The position numbers and the translations under genes are program-made. 27,852 nt of DNA, from positions 1-27,852 of IMG/VR virus record IMGVR_UViG_3300018065_000061. The stretch is one strand, 5' to 3'. Every line of letters begins with the position of its first letter. Positions within the stretch are counted from its first letter, which is position 1. The DNA is from a virus. Positions 35 to 21,342 of this stretch are shown here, in pieces. A model generated the notes under the pieces. The model worked only from the letters and a program-made list of their open reading frames with translations. It searched no databases and was not told the DNA's origin.

Positions 35-457
35 TCATCGCTGCACTCTCTTCCGCACTTCGGCGGGCGGCACAGCCTTGCGCCTGGCGGCGCGGTCGGC
101 CTGCTCGGCCTCCTCGAGCTGCTGCTTGCGAGCGCGGACGGCCACCGGCAGAGCGGCCGGAACCCGGCTACCCGATTCATTCACCGCGCGGTTTTGTAGG
201 TCCGCGACCAACGCATTGAGCTTGTACAGCATCCATTCCTGAGCCTCATCCGCAGAGATCCGGCAAGGCACGGTCACCGGCTGCACCTCGCATCCGGCAT
301 CATCACCGTCACTGTCGGCCTCGGCGGCGAAGTTGTTCTCGATCCAAATGCGCATGATCGTTTCATGATTCGGATCGTAGGACGGGACCGACAAGTCCTG
401 CGGCGCCTGCGCAGCCAGCCCAGCGCACGCGATCAGTAGCAAAATCAGTGTTTTCAT
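35..457 (-). CDS. Small exported EF-hand protein (paralogue 2)
   Basis: This 140-residue protein starts at the ATG at 457, with AGGAG 10 nt upstream. It follows the 1025-aa fibre gene by 13 nt. Residues 1-16 form a Sec-type signal peptide: basic start, hydrophobic core LILLLIACAG and an LAA|Q cleavage site. Residues 48-71 look like an EF-hand calcium loop (D48, D50, D52, then I67, S68, E71) interrupted by a 12-residue insert bounded by C56 and C65. The C-terminal third is charged and helical, rich in Q, E, R and A. It aligns with the product of 3554-3928 over the AEADxxGD and SAxEAxxW segments, so the two are paralogues. Each one follows a large fibre gene, which suggests a fibre partner, chaperone or calcium-binding cofactor (inference). 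No family is recognised. Confidence 0.75.
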   Translation of the reverse strand: MKTLILLLIACAGLAAQAPQDLSVPSYDPNHETIMRIWIENNFAAEADSDGDDAGCEVQPVTVPCRISADEAQEWMLYKLNALVADLQNRAVNESGSRVPAALPVAVRARKQQLEEAEQADRAARRKAVPPAEVRKRVQR

Positions 458-470
458 GTAGTGCTTTCTC

Positions 471-3400
471 CTAGTTTGTTTCAAACGACACATACACCGG
501 CAGGCCCCGGTCGCACTGGATCTGGGCGTCAATCACCGTGTTGGCCGGCAGGCCGGTCAGGTTCACAGTGCGGGGCTTGCCGGTGCCTGTAGCCACTTTC
601 GTTATGCCAGTTTCACCGCTGAAGCTCGTCACGGGTCCGACTTTCCATCCCAACTCACACACTGCTGACGTTGACCACGGCTCGAATTGTACACTTGCCG
701 TAGTGATCCCGGTTGCTGTGACCGTAACAGCGCGGACCTGCCCAATGGCATCGAGAATTGCATCGATATCAGCGCCTTCTGAGCCGGACGGCTCCCACGT
801 GCCAGCGGTGAACACTTCGTCTAGCCGCGTGTTGCATGATTGGCTATCGGCGCTGCCAGCCGGGAGAGGCCAGTTCGTCGCCATCGACCCACCCGCCGCT
901 GTCAGCCGTCCCGATGCTTCGGTATGGGCGGCGTTGGCTGTGTCAAAGTCAACCGTGGTAGGCGCAATGGTGCATGCCACAGTACGGTTCCCGCTATGCG
1001 TACCAAGAGTCGAGAACACGCCATTCGCCAGTGACGTTGCTTCGTAGTTCGCCCACGAGAAGCTCGTCGGCAAGATGAAGTGATTCTGGTTGCTCGAGCT
1101 GGCGTCCATGTCCACGTAGACATTGCCAGTGTTGGTGAATGCCGCTGTGGTCAAGCTCGAAATATCCAGGAACACGTTGTAGTCGCGCGAGATGTTGACC
1201 TGCGGCTGCTGCCACGCGAAGGTGTTGTTCGATACCGTCACGTCGCGAGAGCGCCCGATGCGCACAGCGTTGGGGGCAAAAAACGACGGATACGAGTCTG
1301 TAAACCCCGTGTCGCCGGTGGGCTTCTGGAAGATGATCTCCGGGGCGATGAAGTTGTTATCCACCAGCACGGGGCCATGGGCCGTGTACTGCCCCACTGC
1401 ATTACCCGGCGCCACGCGATCCACGAACACAGCTTGCGAGCCCCGCACGTAGTTGTTGCGGAACGTGATGTGGTCGCACTTGGAAACGTAGTCGATCGTG
1501 CTTGAGCTGTTGAACTGCGTCTGACAAAGCAAAGCCGCTGGTGAGCCCGTCACATTGTGCTTCTGATTCGCGATAGCCATTCCTTCGCCCAACAGGCGCG
1601 TGCCACCGTTCTTGAACTCCATTGGCTGCTGGCGTCCCGGCGACCAAAGGCCACCTGATGCAGCTTTGTGGCTCAACAGGTAGTCAGGAATTTTGTACAC
1701 CAACCCCGACACCGTGAAGTCGGACGGCTGCGTCACGGTCGGACCGTCCGTCGTCAAGACCAAGCTCTGATCGGTCTCCATCACGTTGTTGATGAATTGC
1801 GTATCGGTGCACTGGCGGCACTTGTAGACCTGGAAAAAGTTGTTGTTGTTGGCGCGGTTCTGCAAATGGGCGCTACCCGAAATCGGGTCAATCGGCGACG
1901 AATGGTAACCGCCCTTGAACCACGACCCAATGACGATCAAGTCATCAGCGCTGTCGTCGGCATCGATCGCATAAAGCGTAGACCACGGTGCGCCGCCGGC
2001 GTCGAACAATACCGATTCAACCGTGACACCCGTTGCGCTGCCGATGTCGAGCAAAGGCGGGGCCTCACGAAAGCCAAGCGCCATGTAGCCCGTGACCGTG
2101 AGGCCCGTGAAGTCCGGTGTAAAGGCCCCGGCAACATCGCTCACCTGGCAACTCCAGAGCTTCGCCGTGGTCTGGGTCACCACGGTAGCCAAGCACGACA
2201 TCGCGCTGTAGGTGTAGCCGCTCATATCGTGGACCCAGACCTTCAGGGGCATTTCGGCTGTCCCGCCATTGCACGTGATGTCGGAATCCGTAATGTCCCA
2301 CGTCCCGCTGCTGGTGCTTCGGCCGTTCACGCGATGCAGGGTGTTACATTCGGCGTCAGTCGTACCACCCGTGCCGGTGGCCCCCTGGACCAGAATCCCG
2401 TACTGATCGGCGTTGCTGCCGAAGGCGTAGGCATGAGCGCCCGCGCTGGTCGTGATGACCCCTGCGTTGATCGAGTTGGTCGCTGCCAGAGCGTATTGCG
2501 CCCCGGAAGCGTAGTTGAGGTTCGCCCCAAAGGTTAGGACAGGTTGCGATGTCGCTGTAGCTGATGTGAACTCGCGCGTCACGTCCCGCGATGCCACGCC
2601 CGCTTCCGTGCTGGCGGTTTCGGCTTCACCGCTGGAATCATTGAACTGATAGGTTGTGGATGTTTGGCGTACCCAATCTGCTGCTGTGGCATCGTTGCCT
2701 GCATTCTTCAGCCCCGTGCGAAGGCGGATTGTTTCGGCATTAGGGAAGTAGACTGAGAATTCATCACCCCATTGCTCTGCCGTGATGGCGTTAGCGAAAG
2801 TGACCACGGGTTGTGAGGCATTCGACCAGCCCGTCAGATTGACCTCAGGGTAGTCGGTGTCTTTCGCCGCTGGTCGTCGGATCACAATGTTACGCAGACG
2901 CACGTTCTGCTGGCCAGACCCAACCAAGGTGAGGGCTGCGACGTTCGTTGGAAGCCCAAGATTCTGGGAGACGACGCCCGTAGCGGTGTCGGGTGCGATC
3001 AGTCCGCCATCAGGTGGGTCCACGTCTGGATCGGCTGATTCGGAGTAGACCAACAGCGTGCAATCCGTATCGGTGATGTCGGGGATTGAGTACTGATCGA
3101 GCGCCCCGGCGGTTTCGTCTTCTGGGTAGCAAGTGATGCCCGCCGGGATCTTTACTGCATAGGTCACGGCACTGCTCGCAGCGGCGATACACGCAGCGGT
3201 TTGGCTGGTCAGCTTGGCCTGGAGGTCGTCGCATTCGCCACCCGTGACCGTAACCTCGACCTCGTCGTCAATCGTCCCCACTGCTGAGAACGTCCTGTCA
3301 TGGACCGGCAGGTCAGGGGTATCGACCGCGCCGTCGCTGGTGGTGGTGATCTGCAATACCCGATCCGTCCCGGCCCCGCCTCCATCAGCGTCGATGTCGG

Positions 3401-3548
3401 TGCAGTTCGATGGGAACGCTGCGCACACGCCAGCAGCTTGGATATTGGTCTGGTAGGTGGAATCGGTGTCGCTGGTCCACGCCGAACCGTTCCAGAAGTT
3501 CACGTGCGAGAGCAGCAGGATCGCGGCGATGGTGCGCAGTGGGTTCAT
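471..3548 (-). CDS. Large exported beta-helix fibre/spike-like protein
   Basis: The 1025-residue protein starts at the ATG at 3548, 5 nt after the stop of the preceding small EF-hand gene, which suggests coupled translation. The N-terminus (basic MNPLR, then hydrophobic TIAAILLLSHV) looks like a signal peptide or membrane anchor. It is followed by FWNGSAW, a phrase common in phage fibre N-termini. The middle (about residues 560-860) has the short polar repeats of right-handed beta-helix, pectate-lyase-like folds, for example DVTVSNNTF, HITFRNNYV and LRNIVIRRP. The last ~90 residues resemble a fibronectin type III domain (VNLTGLPANT). The likely role is receptor binding or polysaccharide binding/depolymerisation. 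No catalytic residues could be assigned. An exported host-surface protein is the alternative to a virion fibre. Confidence 0.75.
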   Translation of the reverse strand: MNPLRTIAAILLLSHVNFWNGSAWTSDTDSTYQTNIQAAGVCAAFPSNCTDIDADGGGAGTDRVLQITTTSDGAVDTPDLPVHDRTFSAVGTIDDEVEVTVTGGECDDLQAKLTSQTAACIAAASSAVTYAVKIPAGITCYPEDETAGALDQYSIPDITDTDCTLLVYSESADPDVDPPDGGLIAPDTATGVVSQNLGLPTNVAALTLVGSGQQNVRLRNIVIRRPAAKDTDYPEVNLTGWSNASQPVVTFANAITAEQWGDEFSVYFPNAETIRLRTGLKNAGNDATAADWVRQTSTTYQFNDSSGEAETASTEAGVASRDVTREFTSATATSQPVLTFGANLNYASGAQYALAATNSINAGVITTSAGAHAYAFGSNADQYGILVQGATGTGGTTDAECNTLHRVNGRSTSSGTWDITDSDITCNGGTAEMPLKVWVHDMSGYTYSAMSCLATVVTQTTAKLWSCQVSDVAGAFTPDFTGLTVTGYMALGFREAPPLLDIGSATGVTVESVLFDAGGAPWSTLYAIDADDSADDLIVIGSWFKGGYHSSPIDPISGSAHLQNRANNNNFFQVYKCRQCTDTQFINNVMETDQSLVLTTDGPTVTQPSDFTVSGLVYKIPDYLLSHKAASGGLWSPGRQQPMEFKNGGTRLLGEGMAIANQKHNVTGSPAALLCQTQFNSSSTIDYVSKCDHITFRNNYVRGSQAVFVDRVAPGNAVGQYTAHGPVLVDNNFIAPEIIFQKPTGDTGFTDSYPSFFAPNAVRIGRSRDVTVSNNTFAWQQPQVNISRDYNVFLDISSLTTAAFTNTGNVYVDMDASSSNQNHFILPTSFSWANYEATSLANGVFSTLGTHSGNRTVACTIAPTTVDFDTANAAHTEASGRLTAAGGSMATNWPLPAGSADSQSCNTRLDEVFTAGTWEPSGSEGADIDAILDAIGQVRAVTVTATGITTASVQFEPWSTSAVCELGWKVGPVTSFSGETGITKVATGTGKPRTVNLTGLPANTVIDAQIQCDRGLPVYVSFETN

Positions 3549-3553
3549 GAGTC

Positions 3554-3928
3554 TCAGAGCGGCGGCCAGTCACAGCCAGGGCAGAGACGTTCGCGTTGTT
3601 CCGCTATAGCCGCTTTGGCTGCGTCGAGAGCGGCGAGAGCGTCGCGATGCGCTTGCGGCAGCAGTGAGCGGTCGTCCGTCTCGGCGCGCACGACGGCCTT
3701 TACGGTGAAATGGTTGAACACATTCTGGCGGCGAGAGCTGAGCCATGCAATGGCCTCTGCTGCGCTGACGGACTCGTCGCCATTGGCATCTGCTTCAGCT
3801 TTGTAGTCCGAATCGAGCATTGCGATCACGGGAGCCGGGGCGCCCGGCTGGACCGTGAAGGAGTCCGGTACAACGGTCTGCGAAGTTAGCGGCAGCGCGC
3901 AGAATAGTAATGCGAGTATGTATCTCAT
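3554..3928 (-). CDS. Small exported EF-hand protein (paralogue 1)
   Basis: This 124-residue protein starts at the ATG at 3928, which overlaps the stop codon of the upstream 517-aa fibre (TGATG). Residues 1-16 are a signal peptide with hydrophobic core YILALLFCALPL. Residues 47-58 match the EF-hand loop well: D47, N49, D51, S53, V54, S55 and E58, although position 6 is Glu instead of Gly. After this comes a helical, Ala/Glu/Arg-rich segment and a C-terminal CPGC. It is a paralogue of the 140-aa product at 35-457, which sits in the same place behind the other fibre gene. A calcium-dependent fibre partner or chaperone acting in the periplasm or outside the cell is inferred from the order and the signal peptide. 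Confidence 0.75.
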   Translation of the reverse strand: MRYILALLFCALPLTSQTVVPDSFTVQPGAPAPVIAMLDSDYKAEADANGDESVSAAEAIAWLSSRRQNVFNHFTVKAVVRAETDDRSLLPQAHRDALAALDAAKAAIAEQRERLCPGCDWPPL

Positions 3929-5481
3929 CAGTAGATCGACCTCCAGGCGTAGGCATCGCCCGCGTCTTTGGCACAGACTGAAACGTCGTCTTTGACGCCC
4001 GCGCCGCCTTCGTCCGCCCAGAACGTGAACCGTGTTGAAGCGTCGCACGTGGGGCGCGTTCCGCCGTCGTTGATTTTGAGAGACGTCACTGTGGCTTTGC
4101 CCGCCGCCGTGATGGCTGCGTTAGGGGTATCGCTGCCGAATGGCCGAACCTCAAAAACATTGCCGGATTCACCAGCGCCGCCTTTGAAGACGCACAGCGT
4201 ATCGCCAGTGGTGGCAGTTTGGTCTTGGCAGAGGAAGCTTTGGGAGCCGCCGAAGGTGGCCAGAGTATAACTTGAGGTGGGACCACCTACGCGAAGATTC
4301 AAGGACGCACCAGATCCATCATTTGCCAGAAATATCTTGTAATCAGTTCCTATCCCAAGTATGTCTGGGTAAACATTTACATCATTGGCTCCCTGTCCGA
4401 CCCATAGCGACGAAGCGGCCCTGTAAAAATCAAACCCAGCTACAGCTAAACGCCCTGTACTACCTGAGCCTATTCGCAGCTCAGTCGTTCCAGCGTCGAA
4501 CGACAGATCAGCACTATCCGTAAGCGCCCCCCCACTCACAAATGGCACACGCCCATTCACCAGCCCACCACCAACCGCCGCCAATACGTTTGCGGACATC
4601 GCCGCTGTCGGGACATCGCCCGTCAGGTTCGCGGCATCGCTGAAGTCATACCCCGTAGCCGCTTCGATTTCCGCCACGCTATCCCATTCGCTATCGCGCG
4701 TAATTCCCGCAGCGATCGAAACATCCGCCTCGTTTGCCGAGTTCGTCACGTCGAAATCAGCACCCAGGAAGTCAATGCCAGTCAAGTCAGCCGCAGCCAC
4801 CACTTCGACGTTGTTTTCCTCGACGTTGATGCCCCCGCCGCACGCCCCAGGCTCCAGGCGGTTGTCCGTTACGCCGTCATACACCAGGCACTCGCCATCG
4901 GCGATCCCCGTCAAATCCACATCGCCCGCCTGCCCGATACTGGTCAGCGTGATCGTGTCGGGCACTTGGGAGTCACTGGCTGTACCAGTCAACTGTGAAA
5001 ACGCCACTTGAGCCAACGTACGGTCGTCGCGAACAAACTGTGAGCCGTCGGGCGTTCCCGATGCCAGCCACGAAATATCCAAACGTCCCGGCGAATCGTC
5101 GCCTTTAGGGACAGCACCGGCGCCTGCGGTGACACTAGCAGCAGCAGCGGCGAGAGCGCCGACCTCGGCATCGCGCGTAATGGCCGCCGCAATGGCAATG
5201 TTGGCTTCGTTGGCATCGTCCGTCACATCAAAATCAGCGCCGAGAAAATCAATACCAGTGAGATTCTCAGCAGCAATAACTTCGACGTTGTTTTCTTCAA
5301 TGTTGATACTGCTATCGCTACAATCAGCAGGTTCCCACTGGCTATTGCTAGAACTCCATGTCAGACATTGCCCGTCTGTTGCCGACGCTTGTTTCAGAAT
5401 CGACGGGGCCAGGATGCCTTGTGACGCAGCAACGTTGACGAACAACATTGCCAACAGAAGTGTTTGTGCAAAATGTTTCAT
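3928..5481 (-). CDS. Exported fibre-like protein with duplicated module
   Basis: This 517-residue protein begins at the ATG at 5481, one base after the stop of the adaptor gene (TAACATG). Residues 1-20 are a Sec-type signal peptide (MKH, hydrophobic TLLLAMLFVNVA, AAS|Q). Two copies of a ~68-residue module lie at residues 36-104 and 196-263, with the near-identical core LTGIDFLGADFDVT. The rest is low-complexity, beta-rich, Gly/Ser/Thr-rich sequence as in phage fibres. It ends in a Cys-containing segment (TCDAS...VSVCAKDAGDAYAW) resembling C-termini seen in uncharacterised phage fibre-like proteins. Its place after the neck protein supports a tail-fibre role. The signal peptide is odd for a virion protein assembled in the cytoplasm. 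Confidence 0.75.
   Translation of the reverse strand: MKHFAQTLLLAMLFVNVAASQGILAPSILKQASATDGQCLTWSSSNSQWEPADCSDSSINIEENNVEVIAAENLTGIDFLGADFDVTDDANEANIAIAAAITRDAEVGALAAAAASVTAGAGAVPKGDDSPGRLDISWLASGTPDGSQFVRDDRTLAQVAFSQLTGTASDSQVPDTITLTSIGQAGDVDLTGIADGECLVYDGVTDNRLEPGACGGGINVEENNVEVVAAADLTGIDFLGADFDVTNSANEADVSIAAGITRDSEWDSVAEIEAATGYDFSDAANLTGDVPTAAMSANVLAAVGGGLVNGRVPFVSGGALTDSADLSFDAGTTELRIGSGSTGRLAVAGFDFYRAASSLWVGQGANDVNVYPDILGIGTDYKIFLANDGSGASLNLRVGGPTSSYTLATFGGSQSFLCQDQTATTGDTLCVFKGGAGESGNVFEVRPFGSDTPNAAITAAGKATVTSLKINDGGTRPTCDASTRFTFWADEGGAGVKDDVSVCAKDAGDAYAWRSIY
4693..4896 (-). repeat. Second copy of the fibre module
   Basis: It encodes residues 196-263 of the 517-aa fibre (DGECLV through GITRD). 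It matches the first copy at the protein level almost throughout the INVEENNVEV...DFDVT core. The DNA differs at many third positions and is more GC-rich than copy 1, so the duplication is old or one copy came from another phage. Confidence 0.8.
5170..5376 (-). repeat. First copy of the fibre module
   Basis: It encodes residues 36-104 of the 517-aa fibre (DGQCLT through AITRD). It is the partner of the copy at 4693-4896, with a visibly more AT-rich codon choice. Confidence 0.8.
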
Positions 5482-5482
5482 G

Positions 5483-6436
5483 TTACGCCACCAGCACCCT
5501 ATACGACGCCACCAGCGGAATCCCCGACACTGGGGCAAAGCCCAGCGTCAGCGTGGCATCCGCCAACGTATACTGGTCAGTGCCGCTTCCCGTTGTCAGC
5601 AGCACGCCGCCGTAGTGCAACTCCAGTGACGACGCCGGGTCCGGGGCCGTCGCCAAAGTAAACGTTGTGTTTGTCCCGTTGACCGTGCCTGTCGGCGTTT
5701 CAGCGTCAACGAAGTCGAATAGATTCGCCACGTTATCCTCCGTTGCCAATACCGCTGATAGTCGCGGGTCCAAAAGTTCCAATTCACGTGGCGTCGCCGG
5801 ATGCAGCGCCGGGGCCATTTCCGGCCAGTGCTGCGCTTTGCGTGCGCCAATGCTGATGATGTCGGCTTCGAACAACGTTCGGTACTTTGCCGCTGTACGA
5901 ACGTCTTGGTTGGGGCCTTCGCGCAAATATGCCCTATACGCGCCATATCGAGCCGCTGACGGCGTTGTCCACGCAGGCAACGCAGACGTGGCCCCGTCAG
6001 ACGCCAACGCGTCCAGGAGCTTCGGATAGTGCAATTCGAGCGTCGCTGTCGCTGTGGACAACAGCGGAGGCCACAACGTCACTTCGTTGTAGCCATGCAG
6101 CACGCCGATCTGTGGCGTTTCCACACGGGACGCCGCTCGCCAGTCGGGCACGGCAGCATCGATCTGTGTGCGCCGAAACAGTGGCTGGCGTTTGTTGTTG
6201 ACGTACAGGCGGGCCGGCCGCAACACGTCGCTAGGCAACGTCCACGTGGCAGTGCTGGACACTGTTGTTGTGGCCGTGCCCCATACCAATTCACACCGAT
6301 GCTGGACAACGTCCTGCCACCGGGTGATGTACGTGTGCAGTTCGCTATTGGTCCACCAGCGGGCGGCTTCATCAAGCAGCTCGCGGCGTATGTCAGTACG
6401 CAACGTGGAGCGATCTTTGGCGTCGTAAAAAGCCAT
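5483..6436 (-). CDS. Neck/adaptor protein with C-terminal fibre-type beta domain
   Basis: This 317-residue protein uses the ATG at 6436; a TTG at 6451 is an in-frame alternative. No good Shine-Dalgarno is visible for either, and the ATG lies inside a hairpin (6435-6464). Residues ~1-200 resemble phage head-tail adaptor proteins: a helical LRTDIRRELLDE start, WWTNSELHTYITRWQ, then a beta-rich part with TLPSDVLRPARLYVNN. The last ~65 residues (TGTVNGTNTTFTLATAP...LELHYGGVLLTTG) match a small beta domain often found in phage fibres and baseplates. The protein therefore looks like an adaptor fused to a fibre-docking domain. It lies between tRNA-Thr and the fibre genes. The assignment rests on recalled family patterns, not a search. 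Confidence 0.65.
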   Translation of the reverse strand: MAFYDAKDRSTLRTDIRRELLDEAARWWTNSELHTYITRWQDVVQHRCELVWGTATTTVSSTATWTLPSDVLRPARLYVNNKRQPLFRRTQIDAAVPDWRAASRVETPQIGVLHGYNEVTLWPPLLSTATATLELHYPKLLDALASDGATSALPAWTTPSAARYGAYRAYLREGPNQDVRTAAKYRTLFEADIISIGARKAQHWPEMAPALHPATPRELELLDPRLSAVLATEDNVANLFDFVDAETPTGTVNGTNTTFTLATAPDPASSLELHYGGVLLTTGSGTDQYTLADATLTLGFAPVSGIPLVASYRVLVA

Positions 6437-6485: not shown

Positions 6486-6560
6486 TGGAGGCCCCGACAG
6501 GAATCGAACCTGCATCTTCCTGAGTACAAATCAGGGCTCTACCGTTTGAGCTACAGGGCC
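6486..6560 (-). tRNA. tRNA-Thr (UGU anticodon)
   Basis: The minus strand folds as a 75-nt tRNA with a 7-bp acceptor stem (GGCCCTG with CGGGGCC, one G-U pair), discriminator U and an encoded CCA. The D arm is GCTC/GAGC. The anticodon stem CCTGA/TCAGG has the loop TTTGTAC, so the anticodon is UGU and reads ACA. The T arm is GCAGG/CCTGT with a TTCGATT loop. The D stem and anticodon stem abut with no nucleotide 26 unless the D stem is shortened, a small departure from the standard form. It sits 7 nt after the stop of the upstream gene and is probably processed from the operon transcript. Confidence 0.93.
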
Positions 6561-7600: not shown

Positions 7601-9070
7601 TTACAACAGTTTGCTCTCGATCGCCTCGACAACGTCAGCGATCTGGATACCCACCGTGCACCGGGGCAGAACGATCTTTTGATCGCCGGCCTCGAGTTCG
7701 ACACGGGGGCATGAATCGTCAGTGTGATGCAATTGGAAACACGGGTGGCAAACGGCATCCGGCGCCAGTGCTGTCGTATTGGGCCAATAGCCTGCAATAC
7801 TATGCCCATCGCTATGCGATAGCAACAGCACCTTTGCCACGTGGTCATAACAGGCGGCAGCATTCAGCAGGCCCGTTTCCGGGCCAACAATGCAATCCAG
7901 GTGCTCGAGCAACGCCAGCGACAGCCGCAACGGTAGCTTGCCCACAAGCGAATGCAATCGCGGCGCATAGTCCGGTGTGGCGTCTTCGCCAAAAACGTAG
8001 TCCCCAGCGTCAGGTCCGCCGAGCTGTACGATGCCTACGTCACTGTGGCGACGGAGCAATGCTCCGGCGGCAACACCGGCGGCAGGATACACTTTGTGAG
8101 GCGACGTGCCACGCAGCGCCCAGCCCACAAGTTTGGGGGCCGTTCGTCGTAGCTGTTTGGCAATGTCGGCCGCCTGGCGTTGTTCGGCTGCTGTGAAAAA
8201 CAGTTCCGGGCGACAGGCGTCCACAGTGGCAGGCTGGGGCTCGATGCCGCACAGACGCATCGTCCGGCTGTAGTAGTTCTCCGCTGCTTCGCGGCGACGT
8301 TCCGCCGGCCAATAAAAGTCAGCGCGTCCCTGCGTCCGTAGCACGCTGGCCTCGACGCTTTCGCTGAGGTTGCAGTACACGTCGTATTCGCGGGACCATT
8401 CGCGCCAGTACTCGCCGAGCCACGGGTTAAAAACCATGTCGCGGGGCTGCGGCAGCAGATTGGTAACGTGGGGATTCTCGTGCAACACGACGTGGCTGCC
8501 CTGTGTGGCGTTGACGGTGATGTCATAGCCCATGGCGGCAAAGCGCCTGATGGCAGGCGTAATCACGACCATATCGCCAATGGCGCCATAACGGGCAATA
8601 CAGACACGGGGCTTCGTGGGCTTTGGCCTGCGGAACACTCCACGTTTGCCATCGCGGGCGTAGCGCGCAATACGAAGTGCCCAGCCATCCCGGTGTTGTT
8701 CGTCTTTGATAGTCCATGAGCCCCGTGGAGGCAACGCGGGCAGAGCTGTGTCTTTGGCGAACTGAATCAAATGGCTGCCGTTGTGGAGCAACTTGACGAT
8801 GTGCTCAGTGACTTCGCCTGTCTGTTCCAGTACGACCCAGTCGAGCGAACCAGGGGCCAACGACGCTATGGCGTCTTTGACGCTGACATATGCTGAGTCC
8901 GGGCCGCCGATGGCGACACATGAAATGCCCGGCGCCAGAGCCCGCTTGGGCACGATTTGCCCGTGGACAGCGCCAAAATGCGCCCCGTGGCCGTTCAAAT
9001 AGACAGCGCTGCGGAACATCAGCCACCGGGGCATCGACGATTCGAACGGGCTGGGAACATACTGGGGCAT
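7601..9070 (-). CDS. GT9-type glycosyltransferase (ADP-heptose:LPS heptosyltransferase-like)
   Basis: This 489-residue protein uses the ATG at 9070; an ATG at 9034 is an alternative and neither has a clear Shine-Dalgarno. Residues ~155-455 look like glycosyltransferase family 9: the N-terminal strand-loop CIARYGAIGDMVVITPAIR, then WALRGTSPHKVYP, LVGKLPLRLSLALLEHLD and the donor-site motif IVGPETGLLNAA. This family normally moves L,D-heptose from ADP-heptose onto LPS core. An extra N-terminal ~150 residues (LDWVVLEQTGEVTEHIVKLL) look like a worn methyltransferase-type fold, though this is uncertain. A Cys/His cluster (CHPCFQLHHTDDSC) near the C-terminus may bind metal. ADP-heptose-type genes elsewhere in the window could supply the donor. 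The target (LPS, capsid or fibre) is unknown. Confidence 0.82.
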   Translation of the reverse strand: MPQYVPSPFESSMPRWLMFRSAVYLNGHGAHFGAVHGQIVPKRALAPGISCVAIGGPDSAYVSVKDAIASLAPGSLDWVVLEQTGEVTEHIVKLLHNGSHLIQFAKDTALPALPPRGSWTIKDEQHRDGWALRIARYARDGKRGVFRRPKPTKPRVCIARYGAIGDMVVITPAIRRFAAMGYDITVNATQGSHVVLHENPHVTNLLPQPRDMVFNPWLGEYWREWSREYDVYCNLSESVEASVLRTQGRADFYWPAERRREAAENYYSRTMRLCGIEPQPATVDACRPELFFTAAEQRQAADIAKQLRRTAPKLVGWALRGTSPHKVYPAAGVAAGALLRRHSDVGIVQLGGPDAGDYVFGEDATPDYAPRLHSLVGKLPLRLSLALLEHLDCIVGPETGLLNAAACYDHVAKVLLLSHSDGHSIAGYWPNTTALAPDAVCHPCFQLHHTDDSCPRVELEAGDQKIVLPRCTVGIQIADVVEAIESKLL

Positions 9071-10514: not shown

Positions 10515-11471
10515 TTAGGCCGACGTGATGAAAATGCCGCGACCGTTGTTGGCGCCATCCACAGACGGTTGCCAGACGATTTTGTAGCCCAGATGCGCCA
10601 GCCAGGCAACACCCTGCGAGCGTTCGTAATCGTCGGAGTCCGTGCGAACAGTCTCCGCCATGGCTTCGCCTTCCATGACGTAGTCGTCGCCAAAGATGAC
10701 CGCTTGGCCGTAAGCCGAGCTGGCGCCAATGTCATTGGAGAGGTAGCCCGTTTCCTTCATGATGCGAAGGTTGAAGTACGTGCCCATCTCGGCGCCGTGC
10801 ACCTGAGCCGCGTAGCGCTCGGTGTACTTCGAGATGTCCACCCAGCCGCCAGTGCCAACGTCATCGTGGAGACCGTAGGCCGCTTCGATCGACGCAATGC
10901 ACATGTAGTTGTTGCCGTCGTACTTCGGGACGTTCTTCTTTTCGAGGAACTTCACGAAGTCGCGAATGTTCGACGCCGACAGATTTGCCGTGGCCGTGGT
11001 CGTAGCCGTGCCTGTCGTGACGATGTCAGTGGACGCCGTGGAGACGCAAACGCCGACCCACTCCGAAGCAACGAACTGATCGCCGGCAGCGGACTCGAGC
11101 ACTTTGACAGCGTCGTCAGCGAGAGCTTCACGGACCTGCTGTTCGACGGGAAACTTCGAGTACAGCGAATGCTTCTCGGTAAAGCCCACACTGTTGCCAT
11201 ACTCGTAGATCGTGGCAGTACCGCGCCACGACGTGTAGTTGGTACGAGGCACCGTGGCCGTTTCGACCAGCGTGCCGCCCTGCGTCGCCACATTGCCGCG
11301 CTTGGCAAACTCGACCGTGTCGCCACGGCCCTTGCCAAATGCTTCGTGGGACGAGACGAAATCACGAAACACGAAATTGGGCTGCGTCACTTTACGCAGC
11401 ATGTCGGTGAGTTCAACCTGGGAGAAGTTTCCACCCAGCGTGTTCACCGAATAAACCTGTTGTCCAGCCAT
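10515..11471 (-). CDS. Major capsid protein, N4-gp56 family
   Basis: This 318-residue protein starts at the ATG at 11471, with AAGGAG 5 nt upstream. It has the pattern of N4-gp56-type HK97-fold capsid proteins: an N-terminal DFVSSHEAFGKGRGDTVEF, the E-loop-like GGTLVETATVPRTNYT, central NNYMCIASIEAAYGLHDD followed by GWVDISKYTERYAAQVHGAEMG, and a C-terminal AVIFGDDYVMEGEA. There is no fused protease. It sits between the scaffold-like gene and a decoration-like gene in the usual head order. Its Shine-Dalgarno is part of a long inverted repeat (11474-11543), so translation may be regulated. Confidence 0.87.
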   Translation of the reverse strand: MAGQQVYSVNTLGGNFSQVELTDMLRKVTQPNFVFRDFVSSHEAFGKGRGDTVEFAKRGNVATQGGTLVETATVPRTNYTSWRGTATIYEYGNSVGFTEKHSLYSKFPVEQQVREALADDAVKVLESAAGDQFVASEWVGVCVSTASTDIVTTGTATTTATANLSASNIRDFVKFLEKKNVPKYDGNNYMCIASIEAAYGLHDDVGTGGWVDISKYTERYAAQVHGAEMGTYFNLRIMKETGYLSNDIGASSAYGQAVIFGDDYVMEGEAMAETVRTDSDDYERSQGVAWLAHLGYKIVWQPSVDGANNGRGIFITSA

Positions 11472-12832: not shown

Positions 12833-14794
12833 CTACGTGTTGTTCGGGCGTTGCTGAGCCGCCTGTGCCGTTTCGCGTTGCACCTGCGCGGCTTCGGCGG
12901 CAGCCTCAGACGACGCCGCTGCTTTGATAACGTCGCCCTGAATCTCCATGACCTTTTGAGCCATGGCGGCCTGTTGCATTTGCTCGCGGATGGCGGCGGC
13001 TTCTTCGGGCGAATTGATGAGCTTGTCCACGTCACGGATGCCGTTGAACGACTCGATGATGCGTTTCAGGATTTCGCCCTGATTGATGTTCGGCAACCAC
13101 GCTTCGCCGTTCTGCCCGATGACAGTGAAGAACGTCATCAGTTCTTGGAGTTGTTCGGATTTTTTGGCTTGGTCACTGACGCCGTGGACTTTCAACACAC
13201 AGTCGCACTGGACAATTTGCAAACGCTCCTCGAGCGTCGTGCTTTGCCAAAAGGCATAATCATCAAAACCCAGAATACGCGCCGCCCGTTTGTCGCCGAT
13301 GGTGTGCAAAAACTGTAACGTCAGATCCATGCCTTGCTCGACCAGCGGCTGAATGCCGACTTCGTCGATACGCTTCGCCAGCGACGACATGAAGTCTTGT
13401 CCCTGGGCGCCTTTCATTTCGATTTCGCCCAACGTCTGAGCGCCCCGGAACCGTGGCAGCGCTTGCTGGATTTCGCTGATCTGCGAGCCCTCTTGGACGG
13501 CTCTGTCCAGGATGCCCAGCAGAGGCACTGTCTGGGGCGACAGGCCGCCGATCTCCAGCGGTTGCAAAGCATTCTTCAAATTGCCGCCCATCTGCATCGC
13601 AGCAGCCCTGGAGATCCGCAACAGTTTGCCCGGTGTGATGCCGGCATCGAGGTCTTCGGGGTTTTCAAAGGCGTCAGTGACACCGAGCATCGTGGGCAGA
13701 ATCGCTAGCAGTTCGCGGTCGATGCCCATGTTGGTGATGCGCGAGATGGCTTTGTTGATTTCCAGCGCGGGCTCCACGACACCGATACCGTCCACCGGAC
13801 GCCGGGGATGCCGCATCGGCGAAAACGCCGTGTACGGAGGCTTGTTGCTCCAAAGCTGATTCCGCTGGGCCACCAACAGATGCCTGTCGCCCACAATGAG
13901 AATGTGCCACTGGTTGCCGCCGTCCAGCGTATTGTGCTGACCGTCCACCAGAGGCCCCCAATACTCGGTGACCCACGCCGTTGCCAGAGCACTCTTGGCG
14001 TTGTTCCTGCGTTGCCATTCGTCACGTGCCGAGCGATGCTCATTGCGAGCGTCTGACGACGTGGCCCCGGACGGAACGATGTCTTGCGACCGCAGGACGC
14101 CGGAATCCTCCAGCCCTAGTTGCTTCACCAGTTCGCGTAGCTCGTGGACAGGGGCCTCGTAGTCCTCGATGCAGCCTGTCCAAGCATTCAGTCGGCTGCC
14201 CGGCAGCCAGAAGAACCCAAACGGGTCCACTTCGCGCACAGCCAGCCCGCCTTCCATGACGACAGGACGTTCCACGGCGCCAAAAGCGTTGACACGCGGC
14301 GGCAACTGGCGACGTTGCATTGACCATGCCGTGCGCCAGACACCGAGCCCGGTGAGAAACGCTGTCTCCAGCCCGTTGCCCATGGCATCGTAGGCGCCGC
14401 TTTCGTCAAAGAGAAACTTCAGCAGCATCGCCAGGCGCGAGCCAGCGGCAGCGTCTTGTAGATTGTCAGGGTCCACGGGCTCCAGCGTCCACGGCTGCTC
14501 CGCAGTGCGAAGCATCTGGGACACTGACGACGTGGCCTGTTTGACAGCGGCGAATGCTTTGGGGAGGACGATTTTGCTCTGCCAATCTTGCTTGGCAGCA
14601 AAGTCGCCTTTCAGGTCATAGAGGTCTTGGCAGTCTTGCCAGACACTGTGGCGAGACCGCTGGGCATCGGCCAGTGCTTTGCGCTTGTCGATGACAAAAT
14701 CGACAATGTCACGCCGCGACATCGGCAGCGTCTCTTGTGACTGTGCCGATACAAGTTCGATTGGTTGGTCAGTGCTGAAGGATACAGCGGACAA
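12833..14794 (-). CDS. Portal protein
   Basis: The 653-residue frame opens with TTG at 14794, preceded by AGGTGG 5 nt away; an internal ATG at 14722 (MSRRDIVDF) is an alternative start. Features of large podovirus-type portals are present: an N-terminal helical region with SVWQDCQDLYDLKGDF, KIVLPKAFAAVKQATSSV, a central WVTEYWGPLVDGQ and PMRHPRRPVDGIGVVEPALE, a helical stem region (GTQ-like RFRGAQTLGEIEMKGAQGQ), and a long Gln/Ala-rich helical C-terminus that may form a barrel. It forms the dodecameric DNA gate at one capsid vertex and docks the terminase. Its neighbours are the terminase nuclease upstream and scaffold/capsid downstream. Confidence 0.87.
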   Translation of the reverse strand: MSAVSFSTDQPIELVSAQSQETLPMSRRDIVDFVIDKRKALADAQRSRHSVWQDCQDLYDLKGDFAAKQDWQSKIVLPKAFAAVKQATSSVSQMLRTAEQPWTLEPVDPDNLQDAAAGSRLAMLLKFLFDESGAYDAMGNGLETAFLTGLGVWRTAWSMQRRQLPPRVNAFGAVERPVVMEGGLAVREVDPFGFFWLPGSRLNAWTGCIEDYEAPVHELRELVKQLGLEDSGVLRSQDIVPSGATSSDARNEHRSARDEWQRRNNAKSALATAWVTEYWGPLVDGQHNTLDGGNQWHILIVGDRHLLVAQRNQLWSNKPPYTAFSPMRHPRRPVDGIGVVEPALEINKAISRITNMGIDRELLAILPTMLGVTDAFENPEDLDAGITPGKLLRISRAAAMQMGGNLKNALQPLEIGGLSPQTVPLLGILDRAVQEGSQISEIQQALPRFRGAQTLGEIEMKGAQGQDFMSSLAKRIDEVGIQPLVEQGMDLTLQFLHTIGDKRAARILGFDDYAFWQSTTLEERLQIVQCDCVLKVHGVSDQAKKSEQLQELMTFFTVIGQNGEAWLPNINQGEILKRIIESFNGIRDVDKLINSPEEAAAIREQMQQAAMAQKVMEIQGDVIKAAASSEAAAEAAQVQRETAQAAQQRPNNT

Positions 14795-14852: not shown

Positions 14853-15782
14853 CTATGCCATGTAGCGTTTCCAGTGCGGCAGCGTTTTGCTTTTGTGCCG
14901 GCCACGCTCGATGCTTTTGGTGATCGGCACTGTGGACAACATGCCCATCTTCACGGCGTCCATGGCGTGATTGTGCTTGTCCACCATTTTGTCCGACGGG
15001 TTGCTGTTCTCGAGCATCCTGGCGGAGAGCTTCTGGAAACGGGCCTTTTCGAACTCGTCGATCAGATTGGGACAGCACTTCCAAATGCGGTACGTGGGCT
15101 CGCGAATGTCCAGATCGCGCCAGGCATTCGCCATCAGCGATATCCATGTGTTCTCGGACGTTTGGCCCGGAACGATTTTGTCGAAGCCGGCCTCGAGCAG
15201 CAACTGGGCAATTGTCGGTCCGTCGCTGCCCGTACGGTTCGGTCCCCAGACGCTCCGGGGGTCAGACCATATCGAATTGATCTGGGCGTAGTACGGACAG
15301 TTGTCCATGACCTTTTGGGCAAAGTTCGCCGGCGACTTCGCGGGTTCATAGAGTTCCCAAATGGTATCAATACACGGCTCGCCGTCAGCGTTCTCTATCC
15401 ACGTCATCACTTCGAACGATGATGGGTTCACGGCTCCCCAGTCCATGCCGGCCCAGCACGGCTGCATCGGCGATACGTCGGGAAACGGGGGCTCCACGAT
15501 GATTTTGCTCCGGTGCTCCATGATCTGCGGAAACGTCGCGGCGCCCGACATCGCATTGAAGTTGATGTTGTACTCGCGGTCGAATGCCTCGGGCGACGTG
15601 GACGCTCGTTGCTCCGCGATCCAATTGGCGTTGTTTTTGGCAGGGTCCGCCGTGAAGTGTAGCGCCGCCACGTGGAAACCGTTTTTGGGGTTCTCCCAAA
15701 TTTGCAACCCCGGCTTGTTGACATATGGCGCCGCATTCGGAGTCACGGCGCACAGTGCCGCTGTTTCGCGATCTGCCGACAT
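14853..15782 (-). CDS. terL: Terminase large subunit, separate nuclease half
   Basis: This 309-residue protein uses the ATG at 15782, overlapping the upstream stop (TGATG). It has only the RNase H-like nuclease half of a large terminase. It opens at the linker strand (GLQIWENPKNGFHVAALHF, residues 25-43), followed by the DREYNINF region. The catalytic acidic residues are probably D114 in AGMDWG, D174 in SDPRS and D275 in NHAMDAVK. There is no ATPase motif. The missing ATPase half is the gene at 19164-20165. The split falls at the domain linker and both halves look intact. It cuts concatemeric DNA during packaging, presumably as a complex with the separate ATPase (inference). Confidence 0.87.
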   Translation of the reverse strand: MSADRETAALCAVTPNAAPYVNKPGLQIWENPKNGFHVAALHFTADPAKNNANWIAEQRASTSPEAFDREYNINFNAMSGAATFPQIMEHRSKIIVEPPFPDVSPMQPCWAGMDWGAVNPSSFEVMTWIENADGEPCIDTIWELYEPAKSPANFAQKVMDNCPYYAQINSIWSDPRSVWGPNRTGSDGPTIAQLLLEAGFDKIVPGQTSENTWISLMANAWRDLDIREPTYRIWKCCPNLIDEFEKARFQKLSARMLENSNPSDKMVDKHNHAMDAVKMGMLSTVPITKSIERGRHKSKTLPHWKRYMA

Positions 15783-16201
15783 CAAACGTCTCCCTGTTCC
15801 AGTGCTGCCAGCAACGCGGCGCCGTCAGCTTCAGTATCGGCTTCGGCCGGCTTTGCCGCTGCCGTCTCTGCCGTGTCGCCCAACGTGGACATGCCCTTGC
15901 TGTACTCCATGACGCCTTTGCCGAACATTTGCATGGCCTGAGTTTGGCCTTTCTGTATAGCCAATTGCCTCGCCATGATCGTGTCGAGTTCTTCGTCGGT
16001 CATGCTTTCATCTTCGGCCAGCCGCTTTTTATCCTTCGCCATGATGGCTTTGGTGATGAGAAACGATTCATTGACGCTTTGCGTCATGCGGCGCATTGTC
16101 TCTTCGAACACCGTGTCGTTGTCTTTGCGCCGGGGCTTGCCCCCACGGGCGGCGCCTGTGCGGCCCACATTCGGCGGCGGACGTTTTGCTCGTTTTGCCA
16201 T
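15782..16201 (-). CDS. Small helical protein, possible terminase partner
   Basis: This 139-residue protein starts at the ATG at 16201, overlapping the methyltransferase stop (TGATG), with AAGGAGA 7 nt upstream. The N-terminus is very basic (MAKRAKRPPPNVGRTGAARGGKPRRK). Helices follow (DTVFEETMRRMTQSVNESFLITK, AKDKKRLAEDESMTDEELD), then an Ala/Glu-rich acidic tail. No family is recognised. It directly precedes the terminase nuclease and has DNA-binding charge, so a small-terminase or nuclease-partner role is possible, but this is inference only. Confidence 0.65.
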   Translation of the reverse strand: MAKRAKRPPPNVGRTGAARGGKPRRKDNDTVFEETMRRMTQSVNESFLITKAIMAKDKKRLAEDESMTDEELDTIMARQLAIQKGQTQAMQMFGKGVMEYSKGMSTLGDTAETAAAKPAEADTEADGAALLAALEQGDV

Positions 16202-18565: not shown

Positions 18566-19171
18566 TTAGCCACGTCCGGAGCCCCCCGACGTCCCCGCCG
18601 TTCCCAGCTCGGCGTCCGTCCGGCGCCGACCATCGACACGGCGCCAGAACTCGTCCGTCGAGAGGTCGGTGACGACTTGCGCTGAGAGCCGTTCTAAGCC
18701 CTCGGAGATCAGAAAGGGTCCTGACCCCCGGACATGAGCCACGGACGCCACAGAGGCCGCGAGAACGCTCAAATCGGCCATGTTTTCGTACACAGCCACA
18801 GCGTCTACCCACGGAAGCGCCGAAATCGCCGCGATGCGCTCCAATTCGGACTGGATCGGGCGACCGTCCGGGAGCCTGGCTGACGCCGCCGCGTCGGACT
18901 CCACAGCCACGAGCAGAGCAGCAGCAGCGCCGGCAACCGCTGTGCCGTATTCGGCTGCTCCGCGTAAGAGTTGTATATGGGCCGCCAGCAGCCCATCCCA
19001 TACGCCGTTGACGATGACAACAGGACGCCCGTCCAGAGCCTCGGGGCGTAGGGCGCTTACCCAGGGCTTTTCGAACCATGTGGCTTTCCAGGGGATTTTT
19101 GGCAACATCGTGGCTGCCTTTTTTGTTGCTTTTTTACGATTTGCCAATTGTGATTTTCTCCCACTATGCAA
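18566..19171 (-). CDS. Degenerate HldE/RfaE2-like nucleotidyltransferase
   Basis: The 201-residue frame starts with TTG at 19171 (GAGG 9 nt upstream, inside the terminase end); an ATG at 19108 is the alternative. After a basic N-terminus, residues 51-125 follow the HldE C-terminal cytidylyltransferase pattern: VIVNGVWDGLLAAHIQLL, LLVAVESDAA, LPDGRPIQSELERIAAI, PWVDAVAVYE. The family's HxGH nucleotide motif reads L62-A63-A64-H65, so the first His and the Gly are lost. The usual C-terminal motif is not visible; the end is Gly/Ser/Arg-rich. It may be inactive or regulatory. It overlaps the terminase ATPase by 8 nt and is a second copy of the fold present in the 21342-22274 fusion. Confidence 0.7.
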   Translation of the reverse strand: MHSGRKSQLANRKKATKKAATMLPKIPWKATWFEKPWVSALRPEALDGRPVVIVNGVWDGLLAAHIQLLRGAAEYGTAVAGAAAALLVAVESDAAASARLPDGRPIQSELERIAAISALPWVDAVAVYENMADLSVLAASVASVAHVRGSGPFLISEGLERLSAQVVTDLSTDEFWRRVDGRRRTDAELGTAGTSGGSGRG

Positions 19172-20165
19172 TCAATTTGTCCTCGACAACAGCCTGGAAA
19201 AAGCCAGGAAACGCTGACGACAGCAGCCAACACTGTCCACCGCCACTGATGGCGGGCTGAATGGCGGAGTACGCTTCAGCAGCCTGCGGCTGGAACGCTG
19301 CTTCGTCCATCCATATCAGCGCAGGGTGTAAATACCGTACTTGGTCCGGCCCCTGTGCCACGCCTATCACGCTGATGTCCCGCGACGGTACGCTGAAGAC
19401 GCCGCCTTTGGAGTCGCCCAACGTGATGTCTGTGAGATCCGGTGGCCTCAGAAACGCCGGCTGCTTGCTGATGACGTGATGGACACGTCGCGTGAGGTCC
19501 AGGGCTTTGCTGCCTTTTTCGCTTTGGACAACATTCTCGAGCCCACTGTCGAACGTGCAGTTGTAGGCCAGGCGAATCGTACACATCCACGTGCCCATCA
19601 TGTCGCGTGATTTTGGCACAGCACAGAGCTTCGCTCTGCCGAGCATTTCCAGGATGTCCCTAGCGTACGCATCCACGAGACGCTCCGGGAACGGCCGCGA
19701 TGCCGACAGCCGCGTGAAATGCTCGCGTTCGTGCTGATACGTCGGCGTCGCAATACCATGGCCCATGACGAGATGCCGTTTGCGGCCATCAGCCCCAAAT
19801 TGCCACAGGGCCTCCGGGGGCTTCGGCTGTTCGCTGTTGCAAATGTTGCACGAATAGATCGGACGCTTGTCCCACGTGTACACGTACGCCATGCCGGGAT
19901 GCTGCGACGTGTCCAGCCAATAGCCAATGTCGGCTTCGCACCGTTGCCGTTCGCGATCAGCCACAGCCGCCAGCAGTACTTTGCGCTGAGCCTCAGGCTG
20001 CTTCGCGATGCGATCGAGCAAAGCCGCCGTCAGTACGCCACCGTTGTCATCGGCTGCCCGGAGCCCCACAGCGTCCCGCTGTTGCCCCGTCGCCGGCACC
20101 GCAGCCAGCTCGCGGCCCATCCGTTCGCGTACAAGCCGGGCCGCTTTGCTCAGCCGCCTAGCCAC
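19164..20165 (-). CDS. terL: Terminase large subunit, separate ATPase half
   Basis: The likely start is GTG at 20165 (GGAG 11 nt upstream, overlapping the cupin stop), giving 333 residues. Upstream in-frame codons only read through the cupin gene. The terminase Walker A variant is VPKSRDMMGTW (183-193), Walker B with catalytic Glu is LIWMDEA (283-289), and the coupling motif is LLSSAFPGFF (314-323). The protein stops 10 residues later at ...VVEDKLIA, exactly where the linker to the nuclease should begin. An insert with CNIC (106-109) may bind metal. It powers DNA translocation into the capsid. The nuclease half is encoded 3.4 kb downstream. Confidence 0.87.
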   Translation of the reverse strand: MARRLSKAARLVRERMGRELAAVPATGQQRDAVGLRAADDNGGVLTAALLDRIAKQPEAQRKVLLAAVADRERQRCEADIGYWLDTSQHPGMAYVYTWDKRPIYSCNICNSEQPKPPEALWQFGADGRKRHLVMGHGIATPTYQHEREHFTRLSASRPFPERLVDAYARDILEMLGRAKLCAVPKSRDMMGTWMCTIRLAYNCTFDSGLENVVQSEKGSKALDLTRRVHHVISKQPAFLRPPDLTDITLGDSKGGVFSVPSRDISVIGVAQGPDQVRYLHPALIWMDEAAFQPQAAEAYSAIQPAISGGGQCWLLSSAFPGFFQAVVEDKLIA

Positions 20166-20589
20166 GTGGAGTTTCGCTCCGCTTCGCCGGACGCGAAGGC
20201 TCCATGCGGACGACATCATCATCAGCATGGGGCGTTGAGACTTCCATGATGCGGGCGCCCGACGGAGCAAGGCCAGTCATGCGATGCCACGTTGCCGGCG
20301 GCAACGACAGCACAGCGCCCTGCCGCAGCGTTTCGCAACGGTGCCCCGTGCCGCCATCGTATTCGACACGCACGGCACCATCGAGCACCAGCCACGTTTC
20401 GTGTTTCTCTCGGTGCCAATGTTTCGACCCGGAGGCCCCCGGAGCGATCTCGAGAACTTTGCCGCAGTAGCCATCCGCGATACCGCCATCAGCCTGGAGC
20501 CACAATTCGCGGCCCCATACCTTTTCCACGACGTGCAACGTCTTCACGACGCCACCGGGACGTTGCGACATTGTTTGTTGCTCTGGCAT
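20158..20589 (-). CDS. Cupin protein, sugar-phosphate isomerase-like
   Basis: This 143-residue protein starts at the ATG at 20589, overlapping the upstream stop (TGATG), with AGGGAG 6 nt upstream. It has a single cupin barrel. The first motif is KVLEIAPGASGSKHWHREKHETW, with the metal ligands H, H and E; the second contains LPPATWHRMTG. The opening VEKVWGRELWLQ is like mannose-6-phosphate isomerase/guanylyltransferase cupins that act on sugar phosphates. Given the HldE- and GmhB-like genes nearby, an aldose-ketose isomerase step or sugar epimerisation is plausible. The substrate cannot be read from the sequence. Confidence 0.8.
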   Translation of the reverse strand: MPEQQTMSQRPGGVVKTLHVVEKVWGRELWLQADGGIADGYCGKVLEIAPGASGSKHWHREKHETWLVLDGAVRVEYDGGTGHRCETLRQGAVLSLPPATWHRMTGLAPSGARIMEVSTPHADDDVVRMEPSRPAKRSETPRG

Positions 20590-21005
20590 CACTCGCTCCC
20601 TGTTGCCGCTAGCAACGCTTTCGTCAGTTTCCGCACTGCCATCTCTTCGCGAACGTCCCAACTATCGATCATGTCGGTTTCGCGAAACACGAGATGCAGC
20701 ATTTCGTGCAACAGCACGGCATCCATGTAGGCATACGTCCTGTTGTGCTCCGGCAGCTCCTCGGGATACACCAGTGTGATCGTGGCGTCGCGTTCCTGAG
20801 CGTTGGCTTCGCATTCGCCCACATTGTGAGCGTCCTGCATTTCATGGCGCGAACACAGCCCCAATTCGATGTCCCAATCAGCCACACGAAGTATCTGCTG
20901 CCAATGCAGCGCCCTGTCGTTGAGCCACGCGGCCAGAGCATCATTTGTCGCCGGCGTCGTCGGCAGCCGCTGCTGCCGCTTTCGTTTGATTTGCTTTTTT
21001 GCCAT
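20589..21005 (-). CDS. HExxH metallopeptidase-like protein
   Basis: This 138-residue protein starts at the ATG at 21005, one base after the upstream stop (TAACATG). It has a basic N-terminus (MAKKQIKRKRQQR). DWDIELGL and ATITLVYPEELPEHN lead to a zinc-site helix LLHEMLHLVF (HEMLH at 100-104) and a downstream acidic stretch (VREEMAV) that may give the third ligand. The layout is like small SprT/gluzincin-type phage proteins. The protein substrate is unknown. It sits between the endolysin-type peptidase and the cupin. Confidence 0.75.
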   Translation of the reverse strand: MAKKQIKRKRQQRLPTTPATNDALAAWLNDRALHWQQILRVADWDIELGLCSRHEMQDAHNVGECEANAQERDATITLVYPEELPEHNRTYAYMDAVLLHEMLHLVFRETDMIDSWDVREEMAVRKLTKALLAATGSE

Positions 21006-21006
21006 G

Positions 21007-21342
21007 TTACTTGTTGGCCCCCTGCTTCGGTTGGTACTCCACGTGGAGATGCTCATTGATGCCCCCGGCGTCCTCCCAGACTACGTCGTACAAAGCGCCA
21101 AGAGACGCTAGCATAGCATTCAGCACCGTTGCTTTCTGCTCTAGCGTAGCAATGTGTTTTAGTCGAAAATCAAGTGCCAACCCTACATAGTGCAACGATC
21201 CCCGAGAATGCGAACCATCGACACCAGCAGTAATAACAGCATCGACGCCACAGTTGCCAAACACTGTTGCAGCATTGACGAGCACAGGCGTCATTTCAGG
21301 CCGCAGCCCTGTCAAATGCACACCGGATTTGATTTTGAGCAT
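21007..21342 (-). CDS. M15-type peptidoglycan peptidase (endolysin candidate)
   Basis: This 111-residue protein starts at the ATG at 21342, overlapping the upstream stop (TGATG). SLHYVGLALDFRL gives H51 and D58, and NEHLHVEY gives H100. Together these form the His/Asp/His zinc site of the M15 D-Ala-D-Ala carboxypeptidase/endopeptidase family, which cuts peptidoglycan cross-links. It has no signal peptide, so release would need a holin; a 30-aa membrane peptide is encoded two genes upstream. It is short but within the range of single-domain M15 endolysins. Confidence 0.8.
   Translation of the reverse strand: MLKIKSGVHLTGLRPEMTPVLVNAATVFGNCGVDAVITAGVDGSHSRGSLHYVGLALDFRLKHIATLEQKATVLNAMLASLGALYDVVWEDAGGINEHLHVEYQPKQGANK

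Follow-up and report, generated by a model that had tools for sequence, protein, structure and literature searches.

Why should a tailed phage carry, among its structural genes, a run of fibre-like proteins that begin with apparent Sec signal peptides, when the accepted view is that the structural proteins of tailed phages fold and assemble in the cytoplasm, a reducing compartment, and fibres are normally built inside the cell? The question is raised by an uncultivated virus from IMG/VR, represented by a contig 27,852 bp long (the window). By the types of its portal (12833..14779, minus strand; Pfam SU10_portal, 1e-22) and head-tail adaptor (5483..6436, minus strand; Pfam SU10_adaptor, 5e-12; PHROG structural protein, 6.5e-8), the virus would be a SU10/Kuravirus-like podophage. 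Its major capsid protein (MCP; 10515..11471, minus strand), our query for finding relatives, is 33-36% identical to those of its nearest isolates, Vibrio and Escherichia podophages, and up to 54% identical to those of viral contigs. Other routes to relatives yielded little: the portal had no match in a scan of genome contigs, single-sequence IMG/VR scans with the MCP and with a terminase half returned no relatives, and tblastn of the adaptor against phage records found none. A tRNA-Thr gene (anticodon TGT; 6486-6560, minus strand) lies just upstream of the adaptor gene.

The cassette consists of four minus-strand genes in the order fibre, small protein, fibre, small protein, and both the order and the sizes agree with those given in an earlier, sequence-only reading of this DNA. 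Fibre 1 (3928..5481, 517 aa) has a Sec signal peptide, MKHFAQTLLLAMLFVNVAAS|Q, eight cysteines in four close pairs, and a C-terminal two-cysteine domain of about 50 residues. It is followed by small 1 (3554..3928, 124 aa; also EF1), with the signal peptide MRYILALLFCALPLTS|Q, an EF-hand-like loop, DANGDESVSAAE, and a C-terminal CPGC. Fibre 2 (471..3548, 1025 aa) has a weaker signal peptide, MNPLRTIAAILLLSHV..., and 18 cysteines in close pairs; small 2 (35..457, 140 aa; also EF2), a paralogue of small 1, has the signal peptide MKTLILLLIACAGLAA|Q and an interrupted loop, DSDGD...ISADE. The start codons are backed by tight coupling of fibre 1 to the adaptor gene (the adaptor stop TAA, a single C, then ATG), by a GGAGG about 10 nt upstream of the small 1 start, where the fibre 1 stop overlaps the ATG (TGATG), and by an AGGAGA upstream of small 2, at the junction TAGGAGAAAGCACTACATG. 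Small 1 and fibre 2 are joined as TGA-GACTC-ATG. Because the contig ends 34 nt past small 2, the downstream neighbourhood of that gene is missing.

Since the adaptor gene stands immediately upstream of fibre 1, the cassette belongs to the virion structural module. The portal and MCP genes are close by, and a place in this module beside head-tail connector genes is one that marks tail fibres and spikes. Beyond this location, the fibres are poorly connected to known families. Fibre 1 matched a single PHROG family, which is of unknown function (2.6e-5). Fibre 2, which we read as a probable fibre with beta-helix-like repeats and an FnIII-like end, matched no family, PHROG included. With either fibre, single-sequence IMG/VR scans and tblastn against phage records found no relatives. 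A sequence search of the PDB gave no match.

Signal peptides were called by a heuristic of our own making, with thresholds set in this analysis, which looks for a positive n-region, an uncharged h-region and a -3/-1 site. All four consecutive genes scored positive, fibre 2 most weakly, which bears out the suggestion that every N-terminus of the cassette is of Sec type. Applied to 4426 internal Met sites, the same heuristic gave 12 positives (0.27%); shuffling the four N-termini protein by protein gave 0.02-0.9%, and 49 structural proteins from six annotated control phage records gave none. The predicted leaders thus have the charged n-region, hydrophobic core and -3/-1 site of signal peptidase I substrates, marginally so for fibre 2, which has no clean A-X-A cleavage site and has a possible alternative start past the hydrophobic stretch, an in-frame GTG at 3501, that would skip the leader. 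On the whole, we consider export of the cassette proteins well supported and very probable.

The hydrophobic N-termini could instead be uncleaved membrane anchors, or hydrophobic peptides for attachment to the virion, as the lack of a clear cleavage site in fibre 2 and the signal-anchor-like N-termini of two relatives (L098 and L099) would allow. We consider this quite improbable, given the clear c-regions with host-style [AS]Q sites on fibre 1 and both small proteins. Moreover, the leader pattern is common to otherwise unrelated proteins, which would be unexpected of a peptide for specific attachment.

The cleavage sites themselves carry information. Those of the cassette read [AS]Q, as do signal peptides of Bryobacterales, and a site of the form [AGSCTVLI]-x-[AGSC]-Q is present in 10 of 15 exported proteins of this phage and three of its MCP relatives (L012, L019 and L025), against a background of 10% (1.9e-7). 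Gln at +1 is allowed in 10 of 19 signal peptides from one Bryobacterales genome versus 5 of 36 from one Thermodesulfobacteriota genome. This style supports real signal peptidase sites and suggests that the host is acidobacterial; cleavage-site style may offer a simple host clue for other uncultivated phages.

Cysteine content points in the same direction as the leaders. Mature exported fibre-like proteins contain 1.70% cysteine compared with 0.76% for unexported ones (p=1e-4), and the counts in fibre 1 and fibre 2 are even, with close pairing that exceeds chance (p=0.015 and 0.004, respectively). The pairs could form disulphides if the proteins fold in an oxidising compartment.

The last 50 or so residues of fibre 1, comprising the two-cysteine domain, gave 17 database matches, two of the viral ones being on the contigs L088 and L089, and both cysteines are invariant in the 18-sequence alignment. 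A signal peptide is present on eight full-length phage proteins with this domain (fibre 1, L088, L089, L091, L094, L095, L096 and L118) and absent from two, L093 and the tailspike of Bacillus phage vB_BmeM-Goe8 (QDP42877.1). The Goe8 protein demonstrates that a homologous C-terminal domain can sit on a phage spike; it differs from fibre 1 in having no signal peptide and in having Ala in place of the first domain cysteine, a single case that is not a statistic. A fold search with the domain found Goe8 as the top structural match, with only weak phage matches besides, and nothing useful in the PDB. The copies in metagenome-assembled genomes (MAGs) that have a readable start (L097, L098, L099, L100, L101, L103, L105 and L106) all bear a signal peptide or signal anchor; three further copies whose start is unreadable (L102, L104 and L115) were left out of the count.

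One contig, G011, has copies of the domain at opposite ends, L093 (3783-5135) and L118 (6871-7932). In L093, the domain follows an unrelated N-terminus, and the protein is probably an assembly chimera, or perhaps a deletion variant. We set it aside as a signal-peptide-free counter-example, as it shares its contig with the signal-peptide-bearing L118 and its N-terminus does not look like that of a fibre.

Several of these relatives lie in cassettes resembling that of the window. In L094, a domain-bearing fibre (230 aa), a small exported protein (125 aa) and another exported protein (605 aa) follow a tail protein gene and precede an endolysin gene, and L095 has the same order (284, 113 and 274 aa). 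In L097, which resembles part of a prophage and includes a gene for a major head protein, the small protein comes first (135, 238 and 338 aa). The 274-aa protein of L095 matches a virion structural family, and an exported L097 protein matches tail-fibre families, as does an exported protein of the MCP relative L012. A parallel to fibre 1 is found in a Bryobacterales prophage, L101, where a tailspike with a signal peptide (PHROG tail/tailspike, 1e-11) ends in a domain of the fibre 1 type. Its gene has adaptor-like genes around it and a nozzle-like gene (755 aa) downstream, a location close to the slot of fibre 1, and its N-terminal region is also found on an exported fibre encoded by the MCP relative L025 (5.5e-22).

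A second set of relatives was chosen without regard to fibres. A search with an alignment of four MCPs gave 80 viral loci, many of them fragments, in which fibre-like ORFs were defined by composition. Signal peptides were found on 9 of 69 fibre-like ORFs versus 5 of 425 other ORFs (p=1.4e-5). L019 has a run of four consecutive exported proteins, L025 and L012 have fibre-like exported proteins with exported neighbours, and L031 and L035 share a related exported pair immediately after the MCP gene. None of the common tail genes of the clade, such as those starting MANNYYNF, encodes a signal peptide. L012 also carries, within its exported cassette, a gene for an exported matrixin-type metalloprotease (2268-2807; Peptidase_M10, 5.5e-9).

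What, then, do the small proteins contribute? They had been proposed to be paralogous calcium-binding partners of the EF-hand type. Paralogy is clear: their mature regions align with a score of 63, compared with 30.7 +/- 5.5 for shuffled sequences, none of 2000 shuffles scoring as high. The EF-hand label fared less well. Small 1 does have one 12-residue motif, with ligands at the canonical positions (1, 3, 5, 7, 9 and 12), but its residue 6 is Glu rather than Gly, which by our reading breaks the strict PROSITE pattern PS00018. The loop of small 2 is split by an insertion carrying a cysteine pair, and Pfam EF-hand models did not match the small proteins at E<=1. A low-confidence AlphaFold model of small 1 (from two sequences, pLDDT 62) places the loop between helices at 32-48 and 56-84. 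These proteins may plausibly bind calcium.

A stronger proposal gives each fibre a small protein of its own, a calcium-dependent chaperone or co-factor that would interact with it. Each small gene directly follows its fibre, the two products are paralogous and both keep a loop start of the form DxNGD or DxDGD, and export would put them in a calcium-rich compartment. Even so, we consider this role unlikely, as the small 2 loop is interrupted, no EF-hand family model matches, and relatives are wanting: an IMG/VR single-sequence scan with small 1 found none, and an EF1/EF2 profile was empty in 396 Acidobacteriota genomes, a result that says little. EF1/EF2-like proteins were found in this contig alone. 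In other cassettes, the same position is filled by unrelated small exported proteins, those of L094, L095 and L097 being homologous neither to each other nor to EF1 or EF2, so a dedicated calcium-binding chaperone would be at most a local variant. We therefore rejected an EF-hand partner as a general feature of these cassettes. Elsewhere, one unrelated metagenomic phage, ctUh1700, does encode near its exported proteins a small protein that is anchored in the membrane and has an EF-hand loop. Thus, of the idea that exported fibres mature with a calcium-binding partner, the export part has gained from its recurrence in related and unrelated phages, the paired cysteines and the host-style cleavage sites, and the calcium part stands on weaker ground.

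We suggest the following route for these proteins. Each of the four would be made with a cleavable signal peptide and exported across the inner membrane by the Sec pathway of a host that is probably acidobacterial and Bryobacterales-like. Folding would then occur in the oxidising periplasm, where the paired cysteines could form disulphides and the EF-hand-like loop of the small partner could bind Ca2+. The likeliest continuation is that, on lysis of the cell, the fibres, by then folded, would encounter particles assembled in the cytoplasm and attach to them as a final assembly step. P22 spikes attach last, and spontaneously, to otherwise complete particles. Virion attachment is favoured by this precedent, by the position of the genes among head and tail genes, and by an exported homologue, the tailspike encoded in the tail module of a prophage. 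As a reading of this locus, a late structural module of a SU10-like phage that is exported by Sec and whose fibres join particles at lysis, it is the one we prefer, tentatively, at a little short of even chances. More loosely, we entertain the wider possibility that some tailed phages complete their virions outside the cytoplasm. Their receptor-binding spikes would pass through Sec, become oxidised and fold in the periplasm, in some cases together with a partner that binds Ca2+, and be added to particles at lysis, a strategy that would have arisen or spread across phages of several bacterial phyla.

The proteins might also be exported without ever joining the virion. Made along with the late gene products, they would act on the infected host or in its surroundings as adhesins, either secreted or on the surface, as spikes that degrade the matrix or as blockers of superinfection. 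Such a role, as a secreted adhesin or enzyme, is nearly as likely as virion attachment, because the end domain is shared with cellular exported proteins in MAGs of Acidobacteriota, Geobacter, Thermodesulfovibrionales and Patescibacteria and occurs away from any phage context in L103, L105 and L106, and because cassettes of this kind also contain proteases and lipoprotein-like genes. The matrixin-type protease, a HELFH-motif protein and the lipoprotein-like genes of related cassettes suggest secreted effectors, and L019 has additional, unexported tail-type genes after its adaptor gene, so that the virion may have fibres of its own, distinct from the exported set. A role outside the virion is nevertheless somewhat doubtful to us. 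Many lineages have these genes among those for the head and tail, the tailspike of L101 occupies an adaptor-nozzle slot, several of the exported proteins have matches in PHROG tail or virion families, and in a diderm host Sec alone would strand the proteins in the periplasm.

Compared with known systems, the cassette resembles the spikes and fibres of podophages (P22 gp9, the phi29 pre-neck appendage and those of the SU10/phiEco32 type) in its place in the structural module beside adaptor genes and in its beta-structured proteins rich in Thr, Ser, Gly and Ala, and L101 matches both the PHROG tailspike and pre-neck appendage families. It differs from them in its Sec signal peptides, its even, paired cysteines and its small exported partners. 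The PblA and PblB proteins of Streptococcus mitis phage SM1 are likewise fibre-type phage proteins, and act as host-surface adhesins; unlike those of the window, they carry no signal peptide and arrive at the surface by way of lysis. Late phage proteins do use the host Sec system, as the SAR endolysin of JG068 (PMC3765740), other SAR or signal-peptide endolysins and the spanin lipoproteins illustrate, but these are lysis proteins rather than fibre-like proteins of a structural module. ctUh1700 (MW202637.1) is like the window in that a series of proteins with signal peptides, in its case from the tail module, is accompanied by a small protein, there membrane-anchored and with the EF-hand loop DRNGDGKIDGKDF; it has no recognised homology to the window proteins. 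Its tail-module stretch (locus L156, 33156-39470) has exported and lipoprotein-like genes and encodes a HELFH-motif protein; the protein with DRNGDGKIDGKDF is annotated as a dockerin. A literature search, which covered few subscription papers, found no published description of Sec-exported tail fibres. If Sec-exported, disulphide-rich fibres do form a recurrent class, such phages would either assemble their virions in two compartments or secrete an arsenal late in infection, and the prediction and expression of receptor-binding proteins of soil phages would have to change.

Two further features of the window deserve mention. The phage likely encodes a heptose pathway, with minus-strand genes for a heptosyltransferase-like GT9 protein (7601-9070), a cupin isomerase-like protein (20158-20661), a GmhB/RfaE-type HAD-cytidylyltransferase fusion (21342-22274) and a PfkB (HldE-N-like) kinase (23486-24379). 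Among the loci collected, 31 have a homologue of the GT9 gene, and L008 and L015 likewise carry a gene for an RfaE-type nucleotidyltransferase. In addition, the large terminase looks naturally split, with the ATPase and nuclease halves in separate minus-strand genes (19164-20270 and 14853-15785). Cargo genes, including a methyltransferase and an RfaE-type gene, lie between the halves, and the split is conserved in at least five clade members, among them L008 (1171-2046 and 3130-3981), L020, L015 and L021.
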